Source of the DNA: Geopsychrobacter electrodiphilus DSM 16401
GTDB taxonomy: Bacteria; Desulfobacterota; Desulfuromonadia; Desulfuromonadales; Geopsychrobacteraceae
Assembly (NCBI RefSeq): GCF_000384395.1
Contig: NZ_ARWE01000001.1
Coordinates: forward strand, 1,550,001-1,614,000
Direction of reading: 5' to 3'
Length of the DNA stretch: 64,000 nucleotides
The notes below the pieces were generated by a model, which saw only the letters and a list, made by a program, of their open reading frames with translations, was not told where the DNA came from and searched no databases. The translations under genes and the position numbers were made by a program. Positions 7,824 to 61,421 of the stretch are shown one piece after another (the stretch's first letter is position 1; each line of letters opens with the position of its first letter).

Positions 7824-9233
7824 ATGACAGGAAAAGAAGCACTGAAGTTTGCCGCAGATAACGGCTGCAAAATGGTTGATTACAAGTTCCTCGACTTTGT
7901 CGGTGTCTGGCAGCATTTTTCGACTCCGATGGCAGAACTCAGTGAGGATACTTTTGAAGAAGGGATCGGTTTTGACGGTTCTTCAATTCGCGGCTGGCAG
8001 CCGATTCATCAGTCCGACATGCTGCTTATGCCCCAGCCTGAAACTGCCAAGATAGACCCCTTTATTGAGGTTCCGACCCTGAGCTTGATCTGTAACGTCG
8101 CCGATCCGATCACCCGTGAGGGGTACAGCCGCGATCCGCGTTATATTGCCCAAAAGGCGGAAGCCTACCTGAAATCCAGCGGCATGGGTGACACTGCGTA
8201 TATCGGTCCCGAGCCAGAGTTTTTCATTTTTGACGATGTTCGTTTTGCATCAAGCGCCAACGAATCGTTCTATTGTGTCGATTCGGTTGAGGGTGCCTGG
8301 AACACTGGCCGCGAGGAGTTTCCTAACCTCGGCTATAAACCCGCCCACAAAGGCGGATATTTTCCCTGTGCTCCGACTGACAGCCTGGTTGATCTGCGTA
8401 ATGAAATGGTTGAAGTGCTGCAGAGTGTCGGTATGCATATCGAGGCTGTTCACCATGAGGTTGCTTCGGGTGGTCAGTGCGAAATCGACATGCGCTTCGA
8501 TTCTCTGTTGAACATGGGTGACACCCTGCAGTGGTTCAAGTACATCGTCAAAAACGTTGCTTACCGTAACGGCAAATCGGTGACCTTTATGCCGAAACCG
8601 GTCTTCAACGATAACGGTTCAGGGATGCATTGCCATATGTCGATCTGGAAAGAAGGCAAAAACCTCTTTGCCGGTGATGGCTACGGTGGCCTGAGCAAGA
8701 TGGCGCTCTATTTTATCGGCGGTATCGTTAAGCATGCCAAGGCGCTGAATGCTTTCACCAATCCGACTACCAATAGCTACAAGCGGCTGGTCCCTGGTTA
8801 TGAGGCTCCGGTTAATCTGGCCTATTCAAACCGCAACCGTTCTGCCGCGCTGCGGATTCCAAATACCAACAGCGATAAGGCGAAACGTGTCGAGTGCCGC
8901 TTCCCGGATCCGGCTGCCAACGGGTACCTCTGTTTCTCGGCCTTGTTGATGGCCGGTCTTGATGGTATTGAGAACAAGATCGATCCGGGTCAGCCGATCG
9001 ATAAAGATCTCTATGGTCTGTCGCCTGAAGAGATGAAGGATATCCCGCACGTCGCCGGGACTCTGCCTGAAGCCCTGAACTGCCTCGAAGCAGATCATGA
9101 CTTTTTGCTGAAGGGTGATGTCTTCACCAAGGATGTTATTGATATGTGGCTCAGTTACAAGCGTACACATGAAGTTGATCCGGTCCGGATGCGTCCTTGT
9201 CCAGAAGAGTTCTCCCTTTACTACGATTGCTGA
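7824..9233 (+). CDS. glnA: glutamine synthetase, type I
   Basis: 469 residues from the ATG at 7824, with AAGGAG ten bases upstream; the TTG at 7815 sits too close to that site. It condenses glutamate and ammonia with ATP. Motifs include [18 protein letters not shown], the ATP-binding segment [17 protein letters not shown], and NRSAALRIP. The adenylylation site is Tyr397 ([10 protein letters not shown]), so control by GlnE is expected. It is cotranscribed with glnB and ends at a strong terminator. Confidence 0.97.
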
Positions 9234-33445: not shown

Positions 33446-33907
33446 ATGCCAAACAACCCGATACTTCAATTTAAAAAAATCAATTCTGCTGCTATACTCC
33501 CGGCCTATATGACAGAATTAGCCGCTGGCATGGATATTTGTGCCTTGCCGACTGAAACGATCAATCTCCTCCCCGGTGCACGCTGCCTTGTCCCCACCGG
33601 GTTGGCAGTTGCTATCGAGCCAGGATATGAAATACAGGTCAGACCACGTTCTGGTTTGGCCTTGCGCCATGGGATCACGCTGGTAAACAGTCCGGGAACT
33701 ATAGATGCTGATTATCGCGGTGAGATCGGTGTGATTGTTATTAATCATGGTGATGCCCCCTTCGATATTTCACCTGGAGATCGCATTGCGCAACTTGTTG
33801 TTGCACCAGTGGTACAATCGCGCATTACCGAAGTTGTCGAACTGTCTCAGACGGTCAGAGGGGCAGGAGGCTTTGGTCATACCGGAATGAATGGAATAAC
33901 AAAATGA
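33446..33907 (+). CDS. dut: dUTP diphosphatase
   Basis: 153 residues from the ATG at 33446 (GAAAGG upstream). All five trimeric dUTPase motifs are present: [46 protein letters not shown] and the C-terminal [10 protein letters not shown]. It hydrolyses dUTP to dUMP. It overlaps the next gene by 4 bases. Confidence 0.96.
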
Positions 33908-49364: not shown

Positions 49365-50436
49365 CGGATTCAAGTTGTAAGTGCAACTCTAATAGTTTGG
49401 TTTGAAGGATAAGCTGCGGTAGGCTCACGGCTTCTTTCACCGACCAAAGTTAGAGGAGCGCGATGATGCACTACACACAGCTTACCCGAGAAGAAAGATA
49501 TCAGATTTCCGCCTTGAAAACAGCCGGTCAATCGAAGGCGCAAATGGCCAAGGTTCTTGGCCGCCATAAATCCACCATTGGCCGGGAGATGGCACGCAAT
49601 TGTGGGTTGAGAGGCTACAGACCCAAGCAGGCTGATGGTCTTGCTGTAAGTCGTCGTCAGGAAAAGGTCACTTGCCGTATCACTCGCGAGTCCTGGGCGC
49701 GCGTCGAGCAGTTGACCCGCGAATACTGGAGTCCAGAGCAGGTCAGCTATTGGCTGCGGCAGGAAGAATGTCTCCATGTTAGTCCCGAGTGGATTTATCA
49801 ATATGTTCTTCGTGACAAGCGGGCTGGTGGTGACATCTACCGATATCTGCGCTGTCAGAAACAACGTAAAAAGCGTTACGGTGCGCCAGATCGTCGTGGC
49901 CAGCTCAAAGGGCGCGTTTCGATCGACGAACGACCAGAGGTGGTCAACGAACGGAGTCGAGTCGGTGATTGGGAAGCCGATACGGTCATTGGCAAACAAG
50001 GCAGCGCTGTTTTGGTCACCCTCGTGGAACGCAAGACCCGTTGGAGCATGATTGGCAAGGCACCCGATCGGACAGCAAAAAAGGTTCGGGCTGTCATAGT
50101 GAAACGATTACTACCGCTGGCCTCACACGTGAAAACGTTGACTTACGACAACGGGAAAGAGTTTGCCTTGCATCTGGACATTGACGAGATGCTTCAGTCT
50201 AGCGGTTATTTTGCGCACCCTTATCATTCGTGGGAACGCGGCTTAAACGAGAACACCAATGGCCTTATTCGCCAGTTCTTCCCAAAAGGCAAGGATCTCG
50301 CTGAAGTGACTGACGAAGAGATTCAGAGAGTGATGAACAAACTCAACAACCGCCCCAGAAAATGCCTTGGATTTAAAACCCCCAATCAGGTATTTTTTGG
50401 AATCAATCCACCGGTTGCACTAGCGAATTGAATCCG
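49365..50436 (+). mobile_element. IS30-family insertion sequence
   Basis: 1072 bp bounded by 23-bp imperfect inverted repeats (49365-49387 and 50414-50436), outer part CGGATTCAA and its complement, inner part AGTGCAAC and its complement. The right repeat overlaps the end of the transposase gene. Both flanks read CC (49363-49364 and 50437-50438), a 2-bp target duplication in line with the IS30 family. It lies upstream of the sensor kinase and interrupts no visible gene. Confidence 0.9.
49463..50431 (+). CDS. IS30-family transposase
   Basis: 322 residues, intact. N-terminal helix-turn-helix (YTQLTREERYQISALK, KVLGRHKSTIGREMARN) and a DDE core with GDWEADTVIG, TYDNGKEF and ERGLNENTNGLIRQFFPKG. 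The C-terminal LNNRPRKCLGFKTP is typical. Intact reading frame and terminal repeats suggest the element could still move. Confidence 0.95.
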   Translation: MMHYTQLTREERYQISALKTAGQSKAQMAKVLGRHKSTIGREMARNCGLRGYRPKQADGLAVSRRQEKVTCRITRESWARVEQLTREYWSPEQVSYWLRQEECLHVSPEWIYQYVLRDKRAGGDIYRYLRCQKQRKKRYGAPDRRGQLKGRVSIDERPEVVNERSRVGDWEADTVIGKQGSAVLVTLVERKTRWSMIGKAPDRTAKKVRAVIVKRLLPLASHVKTLTYDNGKEFALHLDIDEMLQSSGYFAHPYHSWERGLNENTNGLIRQFFPKGKDLAEVTDEEIQRVMNKLNNRPRKCLGFKTPNQVFFGINPPVALAN

Positions 50437-56233: not shown

Positions 56234-56268
56234 ATGGCTGGCCCTCAAAGGGCCGGTCATTTTTTTTA
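56234..56268 (+). terminator. intrinsic terminator between pyc and ptsP
   Basis: GGCTGGCCCT-CAA-AGGGCCGGTC followed by a run of eight T. It terminates pyc; the convergent ptsP ends within it (stop at 56266). Confidence 0.85.
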
Positions 56269-58608
56269 GGAAAACTTCTTAATCGCCCGGGCAAGGCGTT
56301 TTCGAATGTCCTTGCTGCTGCTCATCTGTAATATTTCGGCTGCGACTCCTTGTGCTTCTTCTCTGGAAATTTTGCTGATAAAGTCTTTCATGTGGGGAAT
56401 GTAAGGCGCGGAGAGTGAAAACTGGTCAATCCCTAAGCCGATCAGGGCATAGAGGCAGTTGTTGTCGGAGGACATTTCACCACAAAGACACAGATCGATC
56501 TTCTTGTTTCGCGCGACATTCGCGAGATCTGCCAGAGCGCCGAGAACCGCCGGGTGCAGGGGGTCGTAGTAGCTTTGCACCAGAGAGTTAGAACGGTCGG
56601 CGGCGAGCAGGTATTGGATGAGGTCATTGGTGCCAAGAGCAAAAAAATCAACTTCATTCGCAAGGTGCGGCGCAAGTCTGAGCGCCGCCGGAACCTCGAT
56701 CATGGCTCCAATCGGGATGTCGCCTAGAAATTCAATCTTCTCCTCTTGTAAATGGGCCATAGCTTTTACCACCAGCTTTCGGCAGGCCCTGATCTCTTCT
56801 ATATTGGAAATTAACGGGAAAAGCAGACGCGTCGGTCCGTGAACACCCGCCATCAGGATTGCTTCAATCTGGGTCTGAAAGACATCTTTATGGTCCAGAC
56901 TGATCCGTATCGAACGCCAACCCATAAACGGATTGTCCTCTTTGGGGTGATTGAAATAGGGGAGAGCCTTATCTCCGCCGATATCAAGGGTGCGGATGGT
57001 GACGGGGGCTCCGCTAAATTCTTCGATTACTTTCCGATAGAGTTGATATTGATCATCCCGGTTGGGGAAATTGCTCCGTGCCATATAGGGGAATTCAGTA
57101 CGGTAAAGCCCGACTCCTTCTGCCCCGTTGCGCTTGGCAATTTCGATATCGCTGAGCAGACCGATGTTGGCCCGTAGTTGGATGCGCTGACCGTCTTGGG
57201 TGAGGGCCGGCTTGTCGCGAAAGGTGTTAAGTCGTTCTTTCTCTTGGGTAAGATCAAACTCCAGGCGAAAATATTCATCCAGAATTGTCGCGTTTGGATT
57301 GAGAAAAACACAACCCGAATTAGCGTCAAGAATCAGTTCAGCGCCTGGCTCGATTCGGGCCATTGCTCCCTGAACCCCAATCAGGGCCGGTATCCCCAGC
57401 GCCTTGGCCATAATGACGGAGTGAGCATTGGTCTCATTCGATTCGATTATGAGACCTGAAATTTTATCGTGATCAATGCTCGCCATGTCAGAAGGAAGCA
57501 GGCGATGAGCTACCAGAATTCCCGTATGCTGGAGATGAAGGCGGCCTGATTTCTGCCCCAGCAGGTGACTGAGCAAGCGGCGTCCGATGTCTTCCATATC
57601 CGCAGCTCGTTCGCGCAGATAGGCGTCCTCCATCTTGCCAAAGGCTTCAAGGTAGTTTCTGATAACCTTTTTTAAGGCATAGGGGGCGCTATGCCCCTCA
57701 TCGATCAGCTCATGGAGTTTTTCGATAAAGCCGCGGTCTTCCAGGATCATCAAATGGGTATGAAAAATGGCGGCATCTGCTTGAGTCAGGCGCTCCGCGA
57801 CCCTTTTTTCCAGGTAGAGGGTCGCGATGCGGGTCTTGCGCAGCGCTTCATCAAGACGCGCCAACTCTTGTTCGATATTGACATCATATTCAGCATGAAC
57901 ATCCGAGAAGCCGAGTTCGTCATTAATCAAATTGGCGGGCCCGACAATAACACCGGGATAGGCGACTTTCCCCCGCAGTACTGTTTGTCCGCCCGGGGTT
58001 GTCGAATTTCTGAAGGAGCCGGGCTGTGAGCCTTCTGCAGCAGGAAGAGACGGGTGCTCTGAGGGTTCCTGTTGGCGGTCAATGGTGTCTAGCAGGCGAG
58101 CATTCACCACGATGGAGGAGACCTGAAAAGCGATAGTCGAAAGGGTTGAGGTTTCCTCTTCAGTGAAGACCCTGCGTTCCAGCGTCTGGATAACCATGAC
58201 CCCGAGAGGTTCATTCCGGTCAAAGAGAGGGATGGCCAGAAATGAATGGAACTGCTCCTCACCGGTGCCGGCAAAATAGCGGTAGCGGGGATCACTTTGC
58301 GGTTCTTCAATTGAGAGGATGCTGCGTTGTTGGGCGGCAAGGCCGGTGAGCCCCTCGCCGATTTTCAGCTTTACCCTGCCGACAGATTCAGGTGCGAGTC
58401 CGCAGGTAGCGCGGAGAACCAGCGTGTCACTATTGTCATCCAAAAGGTATAGCGAACAGACTTCAGAATGTGCTCGTTCGGCGACCAGGGTGACAATATT
58501 TTCCAGGGTCTCGTTGAGGTGGTGCGATTGCAGGATGATGGTGCTGATATCCTGTAACGTACTTAGCCCGAGGCGTTTATCTGATTTTTTGAGGTTTTTG
58601 AAGCCCAA
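56266..58608 (-). CDS. ptsP: PTS-Ntr phosphoenolpyruvate phosphotransferase PtsP (GAF-EI)
   Basis: 780 residues from a TTG start (an in-frame stop lies 21 bases upstream). N-terminal GAF domain (about 15-170; CSLYLLDDNSDTLVLRATCG), a linker, then enzyme I: phosphohistidine region ESNETNAHSVIMAKALGIPAL (H396) and the PEP-binding barrel with GLYRTEFPYM, DIGGDKALPYF, and GTNDLIQYLLAADR. PtsP starts the nitrogen phosphotransfer chain; its GAF domain senses glutamine and 2-oxoglutarate in enterobacteria. Phosphocarrier and EIIA genes are not in the window. Confidence 0.95.
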   Translation of the reverse strand: MGFKNLKKSDKRLGLSTLQDISTIILQSHHLNETLENIVTLVAERAHSEVCSLYLLDDNSDTLVLRATCGLAPESVGRVKLKIGEGLTGLAAQQRSILSIEEPQSDPRYRYFAGTGEEQFHSFLAIPLFDRNEPLGVMVIQTLERRVFTEEETSTLSTIAFQVSSIVVNARLLDTIDRQQEPSEHPSLPAAEGSQPGSFRNSTTPGGQTVLRGKVAYPGVIVGPANLINDELGFSDVHAEYDVNIEQELARLDEALRKTRIATLYLEKRVAERLTQADAAIFHTHLMILEDRGFIEKLHELIDEGHSAPYALKKVIRNYLEAFGKMEDAYLRERAADMEDIGRRLLSHLLGQKSGRLHLQHTGILVAHRLLPSDMASIDHDKISGLIIESNETNAHSVIMAKALGIPALIGVQGAMARIEPGAELILDANSGCVFLNPNATILDEYFRLEFDLTQEKERLNTFRDKPALTQDGQRIQLRANIGLLSDIEIAKRNGAEGVGLYRTEFPYMARSNFPNRDDQYQLYRKVIEEFSGAPVTIRTLDIGGDKALPYFNHPKEDNPFMGWRSIRISLDHKDVFQTQIEAILMAGVHGPTRLLFPLISNIEEIRACRKLVVKAMAHLQEEKIEFLGDIPIGAMIEVPAALRLAPHLANEVDFFALGTNDLIQYLLAADRSNSLVQSYYDPLHPAVLGALADLANVARNKKIDLCLCGEMSSDNNCLYALIGLGIDQFSLSAPYIPHMKDFISKISREEAQGVAAEILQMSSSKDIRKRLARAIKKFS

Positions 58609-58683: not shown

Positions 58684-58723
58684 AAAAAAAACGCCGCCAG
58701 GGGGAGAGAGGTCCCTGACGGCG
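58684..58723 (-). terminator. intrinsic terminator of the candidate small RNA
   Basis: On the minus strand: CGCCG-x-CAGGG-type arms (one mismatch in 11 pairs) with a 10-base loop, followed by eight T. A typical strong intrinsic terminator. Confidence 0.85.
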
Positions 58724-58805
58724 AAAGAAGGGATTGATCTGTGACACTTATCCGTTCGGGCGGGAACGGGTTATATCCCTTGTTGCAATAGGTGTTGCAT
58801 TCGAT
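58684..58805 (-). ncRNA. candidate sigma54-dependent small RNA, about 120 nt
   Basis: Bounded by the sigma54 promoter at 58816-58831 (predicted start near 58805) and the intrinsic terminator at 58684-58723. Within it is a hairpin with CCGTTC and GAACGG arms (minus-strand sense) and direct repeats of TTGCAACA. The only ATG opens an 8-codon frame without a ribosome-binding site, so a protein product is unlikely. Three inverted repeats thought to bind the adjacent hydrogenase-type activator lie 100-220 bases upstream of the start. Confidence 0.6.
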
Positions 58806-58815
58806 GAAATATCCT

Positions 58816-58831
58816 AGCAATAGTTATGCCA
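58816..58831 (-). promoter_or_regulatory. sigma54 (-24/-12) promoter
   Basis: Minus-strand TGGCATA-ACTA-TTGCT matches TGGCACG-N4-TTGCW in 13 positions, with the essential GG and GC doublets at exact spacing. No coding sequence follows before the terminator at 58684. Confidence 0.75.
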
Positions 58832-58902
58832 TGGTTTGAGCTGGAGAAAAACGCCAGTTTTTAAGCTTTTTCTGGGCTGAACGGAGAAATAAGTGATCAG
58901 TT

Positions 58903-58920
58903 TGTGTCACATGTGGCACA
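58903..58920. promoter_or_regulatory. activator-site copy A (inverted repeat)
   Basis: TGTGTCA-CATG-TGGCACA: one mismatch from the TGTGCCA-N4-TGGCACA pattern shared with copies at 58974, 59013 and 61378. Confidence 0.6.
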
Positions 58921-58973
58921 GTTTGATTAACACTGTGGGTGTTTTTGACGAACAGGTGTGGCGTTTGGGCGTT

Positions 58974-59005
58974 TGTTGGATGTGCCAGATATGGCACATC
59001 CAACA
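58974..59005. promoter_or_regulatory. activator-site copy B: 14-bp perfect inverted repeat
   Basis: Arms TGTTGGATGTGCCA and TGGCACATCCAACA around GATA, perfectly complementary. The core TGTGCCA-N4-TGGCACA recurs at the other copies. No T run follows on either strand, so a terminator role is less likely than protein binding, although the hairpin lies 37 bases after the regulator gene. Confidence 0.7.
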
Positions 59006-59012
59006 GTTGTTT

Positions 59013-59030
59013 TGTGACGCAGATGGCACA
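59013..59030. promoter_or_regulatory. activator-site copy C (degenerate)
   Basis: TGTGACG-CAGA-TGGCACA: right half-site exact, left half-site matches 5 of 7. The centre lies 32 bases from the centre of copy B, about three helical turns. Confidence 0.45.
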
Positions 59031-59041
59031 ATCGGTCAGGT

Positions 59042-61330
59042 TTATTTGCGGGCAAATGTGATGTTCTGACGCTGCAGCATACGGTAAAACGTACGACGCG
59101 GGATGTCGGCCATGCGCGCAGCGGCAGAAACGTTGCCGCCTGCTTCTGCAAGGTAGTGCAGCATCAAGTCTTTTTCAATGGTATGCAGTTGTTGATCCCG
59201 TTGATTCCTTAAACCTGTTATCTCTTGCAAAAGATTCTGACCATTCTTCTGCCGTAATTGCTCAGCTAAAACCACCGGCAACTGTTCAAGGTGAATAATT
59301 TGGTCGGGAGAGAGTACGGACGCGCGTTCAATAACATTCTGCAACTCACGGATATTCCCGGGCCAATGGTAGCAGGAAAGTGCCTTTAATGCTGTTTCAT
59401 CAATTCGGTGAATAGTCTTGTTCAATCGGGTTGATGCCTGATTAAGAAAGTGTTCAGCCAGCTTCGGGATTGACTCGAGCCGTTCGCGTAAGGGAGGCAG
59501 GGTAATGCTGAAGACATTGATGCGATAGAAGAGGTCTTCGCGAAACCAGCCCTGAGCTATGCCGTCTTCGAGATGCTTATTGGTTGCCGCAATAACCCTG
59601 ACATCGACTCGAACGCTCGCTGTACTTCCGACCGGTTTTATCTCGCCACTGTCCAGGACTCTCAAGAGCTCAGCTTGCAGTTTCGGGGTGATGTCGCCAA
59701 TTTCATCAAGGAAAATAGTGCCACCATCGGCCGCTTCAAAGAGCCCTTTCTTATTCGCGATGGCGCCGGTGAAGGAGCCTTTTTTATGACCGAAAAGTTC
59801 ACTTTCGAGCAAACTGTCAGTCAAGGTGGTGCAGTTGACCGTGACCAGAGGATTTTCAGCGCGCAAGCTGGCCTGGTGAATCGCGCGGGCGGTTAACTCT
59901 TTTCCGGTACCACTCTCCCCGCGAATCAAGACCGAGGTCGGCGTTGGCCCGACCTGGGCAATTAATTGGCGGACACCCTGGGTTCGGCTGTCGGTGCCGA
60001 TAATATCGTCACTCCCGTAGCTTTGGTCGAGGGCCCGTCGGACAAGATGGTACTTGCGTTCGAGTTTTGACCGGTCGTCTTCGAGACGTTTTTGCGAATA
60101 GGGGTGACACATGCCGACTTCGGCAAGCCCCTGAAAAACGGCAACCGCATGTTCATGGCAGGTGCTGTAACCACAACACCCGCAATTGAGTTCATCGTTG
60201 ACTGAGAATTTATCGGTCTCGTGAAGGATGCGTGTCAGGGCCTCGCTGCTCGGTTGGTCCATCAGTTGTTGACGATCTGAAAAGCCGCGAGTCAGCTGGA
60301 CTCGACCAGTCCCTGCGCTGTATCTGGGGGAAGATTGATAGGGAATCTGTTTCTGCCGATACTCAATAATCAGGTTGCGTTTCGAAAATGCGGTGAGTTT
60401 GTTCGTGCGTCCAGGCCCGCCGATACATCCGCCGGTGCAGAAGCGGACATCGACGTAGCGTGGTGCAATCCGCTGTGCGGCGATATCCCGAATAACCTCC
60501 ATAGTCGCTTCTTCACCAACGGTTGAGATGAACTTTGGGTCGAGACCGTCATGACCGATGCCGAAGATGTGAAATGGTCCGCCGGCAATGGAAAAGCTGC
60601 GACCATTCAGGGTGCTGTTGCCGTTAAAGGGTTCCGGCAGAAGGCGTCGCGGATCTATCCGGTTTTTTTCGAGAATTTTCTTGAGTTCTTTATAGGTCAG
60701 AACCGTATCAACGGCTCCGGCAACCTCTTCATCTTCGATCTCAAACTTCCCGCCGATGCACGAACTGATATAGATCACCTTGACCGGTTGATCATGACAG
60801 GATTTTATGTAGCGCCCAATCGCGACCATCGGTGAAACGATCGGTACCAGATTACCCAATAACTGCGGATAGTGACGTTCAATCAGGTCGACGACTGCGG
60901 GGCAGTGACTTGAAATCAGCGGTACGCCATTGTCGCGACCGAGAAGATTCCGATATTCAGGAGCAATCAGTTCAACCCCTGCTGCTCCTTCCAGCACATC
61001 GACAAACCCGAGTTGCCTTAAAGCCGTTGCCAGTTGGCCGGGTTCAAGATCAAAGAAAAAGGCTGGATAAGAACAGCCGAGAACCGCCACTACCGGGGTG
61101 GCTTCATTCAGCAGGCGTTCCGTAACCCCAATGGAATCAGAAATTACTTTTGCTCCCTGAGAGCAGGCCTGAATACATTTGCCGCAGCCGATACAGCGCT
61201 CGTTCAGGACGACGGCGCAGTCCTTTCTGATTCCAATTGCTTTGGTGGGGCAGGTGCGCACGCAGGCGTAGCATTTACGACAGCGGCTGGCAATGGTCTT
61301 GATCGGTCCTTGATTGTACGCTTCTGGCAT
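59042..61330 (-). CDS. [FeFe]-hydrogenase-like sensor fused to a sigma54-dependent activator
   Basis: 762 residues from the ATG at 61330 (AGGGGAA upstream); the longer frame to 61705 runs into dppF and was rejected. Order: 2[4Fe-4S] ferredoxin domain (C17-C56; CRKCYACVRTC, CIGCGKCIQAC); H-cluster-like domain (about 75-330) with SSHCP (C143), SSCIGGKFE (C191, K195, E197) and FCTGGCIGG (C298, C302); Fe-S motif CGCCGYSTC (C383-C391, C408); AAA+ domain with GESGTGKE (471-478), the sigma54 loop GSFTGA (518-523) and GGTIFLDEIGD; Fis-type HTH (VSAAARMADIPRRTFYRML). All four H-cluster Cys positions are kept, but the proton-transfer Cys is His, as in sensory rather than catalytic hydrogenases. Likely a one-component redox or H2 sensor. 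Confidence 0.88.
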   Translation of the reverse strand: MPEAYNQGPIKTIASRCRKCYACVRTCPTKAIGIRKDCAVVLNERCIGCGKCIQACSQGAKVISDSIGVTERLLNEATPVVAVLGCSYPAFFFDLEPGQLATALRQLGFVDVLEGAAGVELIAPEYRNLLGRDNGVPLISSHCPAVVDLIERHYPQLLGNLVPIVSPMVAIGRYIKSCHDQPVKVIYISSCIGGKFEIEDEEVAGAVDTVLTYKELKKILEKNRIDPRRLLPEPFNGNSTLNGRSFSIAGGPFHIFGIGHDGLDPKFISTVGEEATMEVIRDIAAQRIAPRYVDVRFCTGGCIGGPGRTNKLTAFSKRNLIIEYRQKQIPYQSSPRYSAGTGRVQLTRGFSDRQQLMDQPSSEALTRILHETDKFSVNDELNCGCCGYSTCHEHAVAVFQGLAEVGMCHPYSQKRLEDDRSKLERKYHLVRRALDQSYGSDDIIGTDSRTQGVRQLIAQVGPTPTSVLIRGESGTGKELTARAIHQASLRAENPLVTVNCTTLTDSLLESELFGHKKGSFTGAIANKKGLFEAADGGTIFLDEIGDITPKLQAELLRVLDSGEIKPVGSTASVRVDVRVIAATNKHLEDGIAQGWFREDLFYRINVFSITLPPLRERLESIPKLAEHFLNQASTRLNKTIHRIDETALKALSCYHWPGNIRELQNVIERASVLSPDQIIHLEQLPVVLAEQLRQKNGQNLLQEITGLRNQRDQQLHTIEKDLMLHYLAEAGGNVSAAARMADIPRRTFYRMLQRQNITFARK

Positions 61331-61377
61331 AGGTTCCCCTTTAATCGCGGCGGCAGAAGGTGACGAGGCCGGCCGAA

Positions 61378-61397
61378 TTGTGCCATTAGTGGCACGC
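61378..61397. promoter_or_regulatory. activator-site copy D before the hydrogenase-type regulator
   Basis: TTGTGCCA-TTAG-TGGCACGC: the same inverted core as copies A-C, 48 bases upstream of the regulator ATG (61330). Suggests autoregulation by the encoded activator. Confidence 0.6.
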
Positions 61398-61421
61398 ATG
61401 ATCAAGGGTTTTAGTTGTAAA

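Follow-up and report, generated by a model that had tools for sequence, protein, structure and literature searches.

A hydrogenase-like sigma54 activator and a conserved small RNA likely to target citrate synthase in Geopsychrobacter electrodiphilus and its relatives

In Geobacter sulfurreducens, the gene GSU3364 has a predicted RpoN promoter and is preceded by a gene for an enhancer-binding protein (EBP) (PMC2725144); its product is HgtR, which is induced by H2 and downregulates citrate synthase (PMC7894505, PMC7726332). In Pseudomonas and Azotobacter, the EBP gene cbrB is followed by the gene for CrcZ, an RpoN-dependent small RNA that CbrB activates (PMC6292655). RoxS/RsaE of Firmicutes, a redox-linked small RNA, has C-rich regions that can pair with Shine-Dalgarno sequences and a role in the tricarboxylic acid cycle (PMC4409812), and sensory [FeFe] hydrogenases of the PAS type (HydS) carry a hydrogenase-like domain inside a signalling protein (PMC10055695). 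Here we describe a locus that resembles each of these systems in part, within a 64,000-nucleotide stretch of Geopsychrobacter electrodiphilus DSM 16401 (contig NZ_ARWE01000001.1, positions 1,550,001 to 1,614,000; hereafter the window, with coordinates counted from its first letter). In this locus, the gene for a hydrogenase-like sigma54 activator, hereafter the regulator, is followed by a predicted small RNA.

The locus also differs from each of these systems. CbrB is a two-component response regulator and CrcZ relieves Hfq-Crc repression, and the sequences of CrcZ and the window's RNA were compared via Rfam only. RoxS/RsaE belongs to another phylum and is described as being under ResDE/SrrAB two-component control, and the RNA of the window has no Rfam family at the gathering threshold, with only weak matches near it (the best is ncS54, E 0.11). 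The output at the HgtR locus is a repressor whereas that in the window is an RNA, and the two loci are likened by arrangement, not by EBP sequence. Unlike the sensory [FeFe] hydrogenases, the regulator has no Pfam match to a PAS domain, has a sigma54-activating AAA+ domain and a helix-turn-helix (HTH) as its output, has altered [2Fe]-site residues, and resides in a genome with neither HydF nor HydG over the cut-off.

We assign a probability of roughly 0.68 to the explanation that an iron-sulphur (Fe-S) redox switch throttles acetate oxidation, by way of an RNA here and of a repressor in Geobacter. The regulator would be a one-component sigma54 activator. Its N-terminal half, a degenerate [FeFe]-hydrogenase fold, would act as an Fe-S relay, with clusters that may signal conditions that are reduced or rich in H2 or electron donor. 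Its palindrome-bound AAA+ domain would open a sigma54 promoter to give an RNA of ~122 nt, the exposed loop of which, CUCUCUCC, would pair with GGAGAGAG where it forms part of a ribosome-binding site, namely at the genes for citrate synthase, malate dehydrogenase and a member of the acetyl-CoA hydrolase/transferase family and, in relatives, also at that for isocitrate dehydrogenase. The paired mRNAs would be translated less, which would lower acetate oxidation, and the regulator would probably repress transcription from its own promoter, which is of the sigma70 type. In Geobacter-type relatives (a working label for families f22-f25), the same regulator and promoter architecture precedes a small ribbon-helix-helix (RHH)-like protein, most likely HgtR, the reported citrate synthase repressor. 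The signal, the transcription, the pairing, the direction of the effect and the identity with HgtR are the steps that we infer.

The architecture of the locus, the co-occurrence of its parts, and the conservation of seed and target site come directly from the computation. The regulator is a protein of 762 aa encoded at 59042..61330 on the minus strand, and Pfam confirms the statement of a first-pass annotation of this DNA that Fe-S, H-cluster-like, sigma54 AAA+ and HTH parts are joined in a single protein. Specifically, the N-terminal half contains two Fer4 stretches, Fe_hyd_lg_C (94-306) and the Fe-S domain PF04060 (381-410), while the C-terminal half contains Sigma54_activat (443-609), an AAA lid and the Fis-type HTH_8 (716-753). 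Walker A/B motifs of sigma54 EBPs are present in the Sigma54_activat domain, and its sigma54-contact loop is GSFTGA. G[AS]FTGA is kept in 66 of 69 distinct orthologs, the remaining 3 having one-letter variants. By its AAA+ domain, its GAFTGA loop and its Fis-type HTH accompanied by palindromes, the binding of which is putative, the regulator classifies as a sigma54 EBP of the NtrC/NifA class. Full-length matches (E<=1e-120) occur in 205 of the 277 genomes of the class, 118 of them outside the window's order; going by the regulator, Geopsychrobacter (85%) and Malonomonas (69%) are the closest named relatives, followed at a greater distance by Desulfuromonas and Geobacter. The window's own genome is complete (4.24 Mb, one contig). 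The regulator frames of two other genomes, G021 (L022, TAA) and G037 (L038, TAG), have one in-frame stop each, from either a pseudogene or a sequencing error.

On the minus strand, the regulator is followed in order by palindromes, promoter, RNA, terminator and ptsP. Three palindromes, at 59012..59031, 58980..58999 and 58902..58921 on that strand, are predicted enhancers, and a fourth lies at 61378..61397 on the same strand; of the inverted repeats noted in the first pass, those given there as 58903, 59013 and 61378 were found again, and the one placed at 58974 is found at 58980-58999. All four have 2 mismatches each from TTGTGCCA-N4-TGGCACAA, a pattern that with at most 3 mismatches has 5 matches in the 64 kb vs 0.29 expected, the fifth being at 33798. 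Genome-wide, with at most 1 mismatch, it yields 10 rows, 5 of them at the regulator locus (one site is counted on both strands), vs 2 rows for the reversed control; for three of the five rows elsewhere (L002, L003 and L008), there is no sigma54 box with a score of at least 21 within 450 nt. The sigma54 (−24/−12) promoter, TGGCATAACTATTGCT, occupies 58831-58816 on the minus strand, just where it had been proposed. Within the window, the relaxed sigma54 pattern is not above chance (7 found vs 11.0 expected), so the weight of the box rests on its position and its conservation. Specifically, among 66 ortholog downstream regions (69 distinct ones minus the 3 with a protein output, L082, L084 and L085), 63 have a sigma54 score of at least 20, vs 5% of shuffles, and 64 have a palindrome, vs 2.5% of shuffles.

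The palindrome at 61378 exists as first noted, but an enhancer role is improbable for it. Its position, flanked by the −35 element TTGATC (61405-61400) and the −10 element CACAAT (61382-61377) of the regulator's sigma70-type promoter, makes autorepression likely. A TTGACA-like element 16-18 nt before CACAA is found at 56 of 62 ortholog upstream palindromes, vs 7.3 expected. We therefore regard the palindrome as a probable autorepression operator, through which the regulator probably represses its own promoter.

The small RNA, predicted from the alignment and a covariance model, spans 58684..58805 on the minus strand (~122 nt), with its 5′ end placed from the −12 element. It has a predicted 5′ stem-loop (58728..58781) and a terminator hairpin (58723-58692, followed by T8 to 58684, in agreement with the terminator first noted at 58684), both on the minus strand, and the terminator loop carries the seed CUCUCUCC at 58710-58703. 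The terminator pattern located the RNA in 65 of the 69 distinct ortholog downstream regions; the RNA of L063 was recognised by the covariance model (37 bits), and L082, L084 and L085 have a small protein gene in its place. In the alignment of 65 of these 66 RNAs (L063 excluded), 7 of the 10 consensus pairs of the terminator stem show compensatory change, the seed is present in the terminator loop of 61 of the 65, and the loop core is unpaired in the ensemble with a median probability of 1.00. Folding of the 5′ domain gives a mean z of −1.32 over the 65 RNAs, with 39 below −1 and 18 below −2. A peptide-coding function was considered and rejected, as 56 of the 65 contain no closed open reading frame (ORF) of at least 10 codons; an ATG occurs in 32, and the longest ORF has 26 codons.

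Covariance-model matches with E<=2e-5 occur in 88 of the 277 genomes of the class, every one in the window's order, and no strong-score match was found outside the order among these genomes. Weaker scores in G034, G023 and G158, and for second matches in G115 and G117, were treated as other RNAs or chance. The RNA is present in 81 of the 87 regulator-bearing genomes of the order, and conservation thus strongly supports the wiring proposed in the first pass, in which the activator acts through enhancers and a promoter on an RNA of ~120 nt. Judged from these sequence comparisons, the wiring is very likely real.

The complement of the seed, GGAGAGA, coincides with the ribosome-binding site of citrate synthase (gltA) in 48 of 49 RNA-bearing genomes (the exception is G053), and the full GGAGAGAG precedes gltA in 41 of the 49. 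The site is found at gltA in 0 of 20 Geobacter-type genomes and in 0 of 6 genomes of family f4, of which G039, G085, G092 and G128 have the regulator and G059 and G134 do not. These counts cover 90 of the 244 genomes with a match, 60 of them hand-picked among the matches listed; they use a start codon found in frame, and several loci end at contig edges. The background is 5 sites in 369 long ORFs of regulator neighbourhoods, a set of repeated orthologous genes and not a whole genome. The predicted duplex of loop and gltA has an energy of −15.6 kcal/mol, vs −9.9, −7.6 and −6.0 kcal/mol for three RNA-minus genomes.

In nine genomes of the genus, GGAGAGAG-N2-9-ATG has 146 sites, 16 of them in the window's own genome, vs 33 for a reversed control pattern. 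The tally of target families used 108 loci for the 146 sites, left out G004 and G006 for the most part, found an ORF of at least 40 aa in 71, and took family names from Pfam (that of the quinone oxidoreductase partly by eye). Four families recur in five genomes of the genus, namely citrate synthase, monomeric isocitrate dehydrogenase (icd), malate dehydrogenase (mdh) and a zinc-type quinone oxidoreductase. In addition, the NiFe hydrogenase large subunit and a LivH-type permease have a seed-complement site in three genomes each, and the acetyl-CoA hydrolase/transferase-family gene and two other families in two genomes each. The window genome's sites include citrate synthase, malate dehydrogenase, quinone oxidoreductase and the acetyl-CoA hydrolase/transferase gene. 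Judged by conservation, citrate synthase and other genes of acetate oxidation are thus likely to be targeted by the RNA at their ribosome-binding sites; the first-pass annotation had named no target.

Outside the window's order, the regulator has a different neighbour. In 70 of 72 genomes compared (out of the 118 regulator genomes there, among the matches listed), the regulator is directly followed, at a distance of 234-829 nt, by a match to a 59-aa RHH-like protein; of 30 loci of this kind that were read, all have a sigma54 box and 27 have a palindrome. The protein has 59-61 aa in the three translated loci (L082, 8530-8712; L084, from Geobacter sp. OR-1, 8529-8708; L085, 8529-8714), and its Pfam matches, DUF6290 and RHH_1, are below the cut-off. 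Within the order, the six regulator genomes without the RNA make up family f4, in which regulator identity is 41-44%, the GAFTGA loop is lost from all 6 regulators with the Walker motifs and HTH kept, and ptsP follows the regulator with the RNA absent (in G039 by match, in all six by eye). We consider it slightly better than an even bet that one orthologous redox switch swapped its output between the HgtR repressor and an anti-Shine-Dalgarno RNA, with citrate synthase and acetate oxidation as the same target, and that f4 is without the loop, the RNA and, where examined, the site. The loop-less f4 regulators (L186-L191) have possibly turned repressor, and the f4 genomes carry HydG.

Several observations weigh against the explanation of an Fe-S switch acting through the RNA on acetate oxidation. 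The RNA occurs without a full-length regulator in 7 genomes (G010, G014, G045, G067, G073, G078 and G081), 6 of which keep the sigma54 box. GGAGAGA is also present at gltA in all but one (G052) of 15 further genomes of the order that have no RNA, from families f1/f17, so site and RNA are not strictly coupled, and some of these genomes have a second hairpin RNA with a CUCUC-type loop, detected by a model that rewards that loop. Isocitrate dehydrogenase is not among the window genome's 16 sites, which also cover RNase G-like, TatA, response-regulator and other genes (names partly by eye). G004 (gltA) and G006 (icd) count toward the five-genome families and have no RNA match, and the icd and mdh sites were looked at in one genus only. 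Because the seed and the Shine-Dalgarno core overlap, both the conservation and the 146-vs-33 excess are in part trivial. No compensatory changes of seed and target were seen. Finally, the Geobacter-type RHH-like protein is probably HgtR by its arrangement, not by its sequence.

Two side observations concern these genomes. The regulator-minus RNA loci are L129, L130, L131, L147, L206, L207 and L208, with a palindrome-like site recognised by eye in L206 and L207. The second RNA-like element has two hairpins, with CUCUC-type and CUCC-type loops (L133, 1427-1520; L134, 1751-1843; L135, 3971-4063; L137, 3976-4066), and is located 3′ of a GlcF/LutA-like gene (named by eye) in L134, L135 and L137; genomes with it are without the main RNA, yet keep GGAGAGAG at citrate synthase.

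Other functions of the RNA can be weighed against these data. GGAGAGAG at gltA could be conserved because of another RNA or to keep translation strong, with the RNA acting elsewhere, as the 14 of 15 RNA-minus f1/f17 genomes with the site and the second hairpin RNA in L133, L134, L135 and L137 would suggest; the site is absent, however, from the 6 f4 genomes, from RNA-minus G052 and from the 20 Geobacter-type genomes, and we hold this account to be unlikely. We are a little more doubtful still that the C/U-rich loop binds a protein, as an Hfq- or Csr-like sponge, or free ribosomes, with the citrate-cycle matches incidental. The loop is short and nearly invariant, and it resembles the 16S anti-Shine-Dalgarno sequence, as would suit such binding, but the gltA site stands at 48 of 49 against a background of 5 in 369, and gltA, icd and mdh are among the four most recurrent families. 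The RNA might also be a leader or attenuator of ptsP (GAF + PTS enzyme I by Pfam; 56266..58608, minus strand), which adjoins the RNA unit without being part of it and comes next on the same strand in the window and at many ortholog loci. That reading was rejected and retains hardly any credence: a strong terminator closes the RNA; the RNA occurs with no ptsP match in the examined 3′ flank (L060, L061, L072, L077, L078, L083 and L143-L145) or with ptsP ~3.5 kb away (L064, L091); and f4 keeps ptsP after the regulator though without the RNA.

The first-pass annotation had also proposed that H2 is sensed through an H-cluster. Consistent with a true H-cluster within the regulator, the four cubane-type cysteines (C143, C191, C298 and C302) are invariant in 69 of 69 orthologs, and the 69 also retain all twelve cysteines that belong to the ferredoxin and PF04060 motifs, one truncated row being gapped at the first seven; the alignment excluded orthologs with an in-frame stop or shorter than 650 aa. 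In an alignment to CpI, however, the equivalents of C299 and M353 are H and S in 69 of 69, that of M497 is R in 68 of 69, and that of the [2Fe]-subcluster residue K358 is G, A or S in 65, 3 and 1 of the 69. HydG is not over the cut-off in the window's complete genome nor in 195 of the 205 regulator-bearing genomes, some of them incomplete; it is over the cut-off in 29 of the 277 genomes and only 10 of the 205, six of those 10 being f4, and HydF is found in just 2 of 60 genomes and not over the cut-off in the window's. Known sensory enzymes vary at C299, M353 and M497 as well, according to PMC10055695, so these three changes alone are not decisive and the argument is carried by the K358 position, together with the maturases; residues that hydrogen-bond the [2Fe] unit stay conserved in the sensory enzymes described there, unlike K358 in all 69 orthologs. 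Since the [2Fe]-site residues are altered and the maturases HydG and HydF rare, an H-cluster is unlikely, and direct sensing of H2 by the regulator is highly improbable. A weaker form of the broader wording of the first pass, H2 or redox state, can be retained, as the H2 induction of HgtR, the probable output of the orthologous Geobacter locus, would fit an Fe-S redox signal linked to H2-dependent growth; Fe-S redox sensing is the remaining reading of the signal.

Elsewhere in the 64-kb window, an IS30-type transposase gene was recognised by eye at 49463-50431, and no tRNA or tmRNA was found. The parts of the locus are of known kinds, and no such regulator or RNA is named in the titles or abstracts among the literature matches listed; as far as these matches go, the sensor-activator fusion, the RNA family and the exchange of RNA and repressor look new. 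If the explanation is true, the Desulfuromonadales, known for acetate oxidation and metal reduction in sediments, would gain a trans-acting RNA whose sensor, promoter and targets are named. This would further suggest that the activator of HgtR in Geobacter is a hydrogenase-derived Fe-S protein, and a protein repressor and an RNA would have traded places under one regulator.

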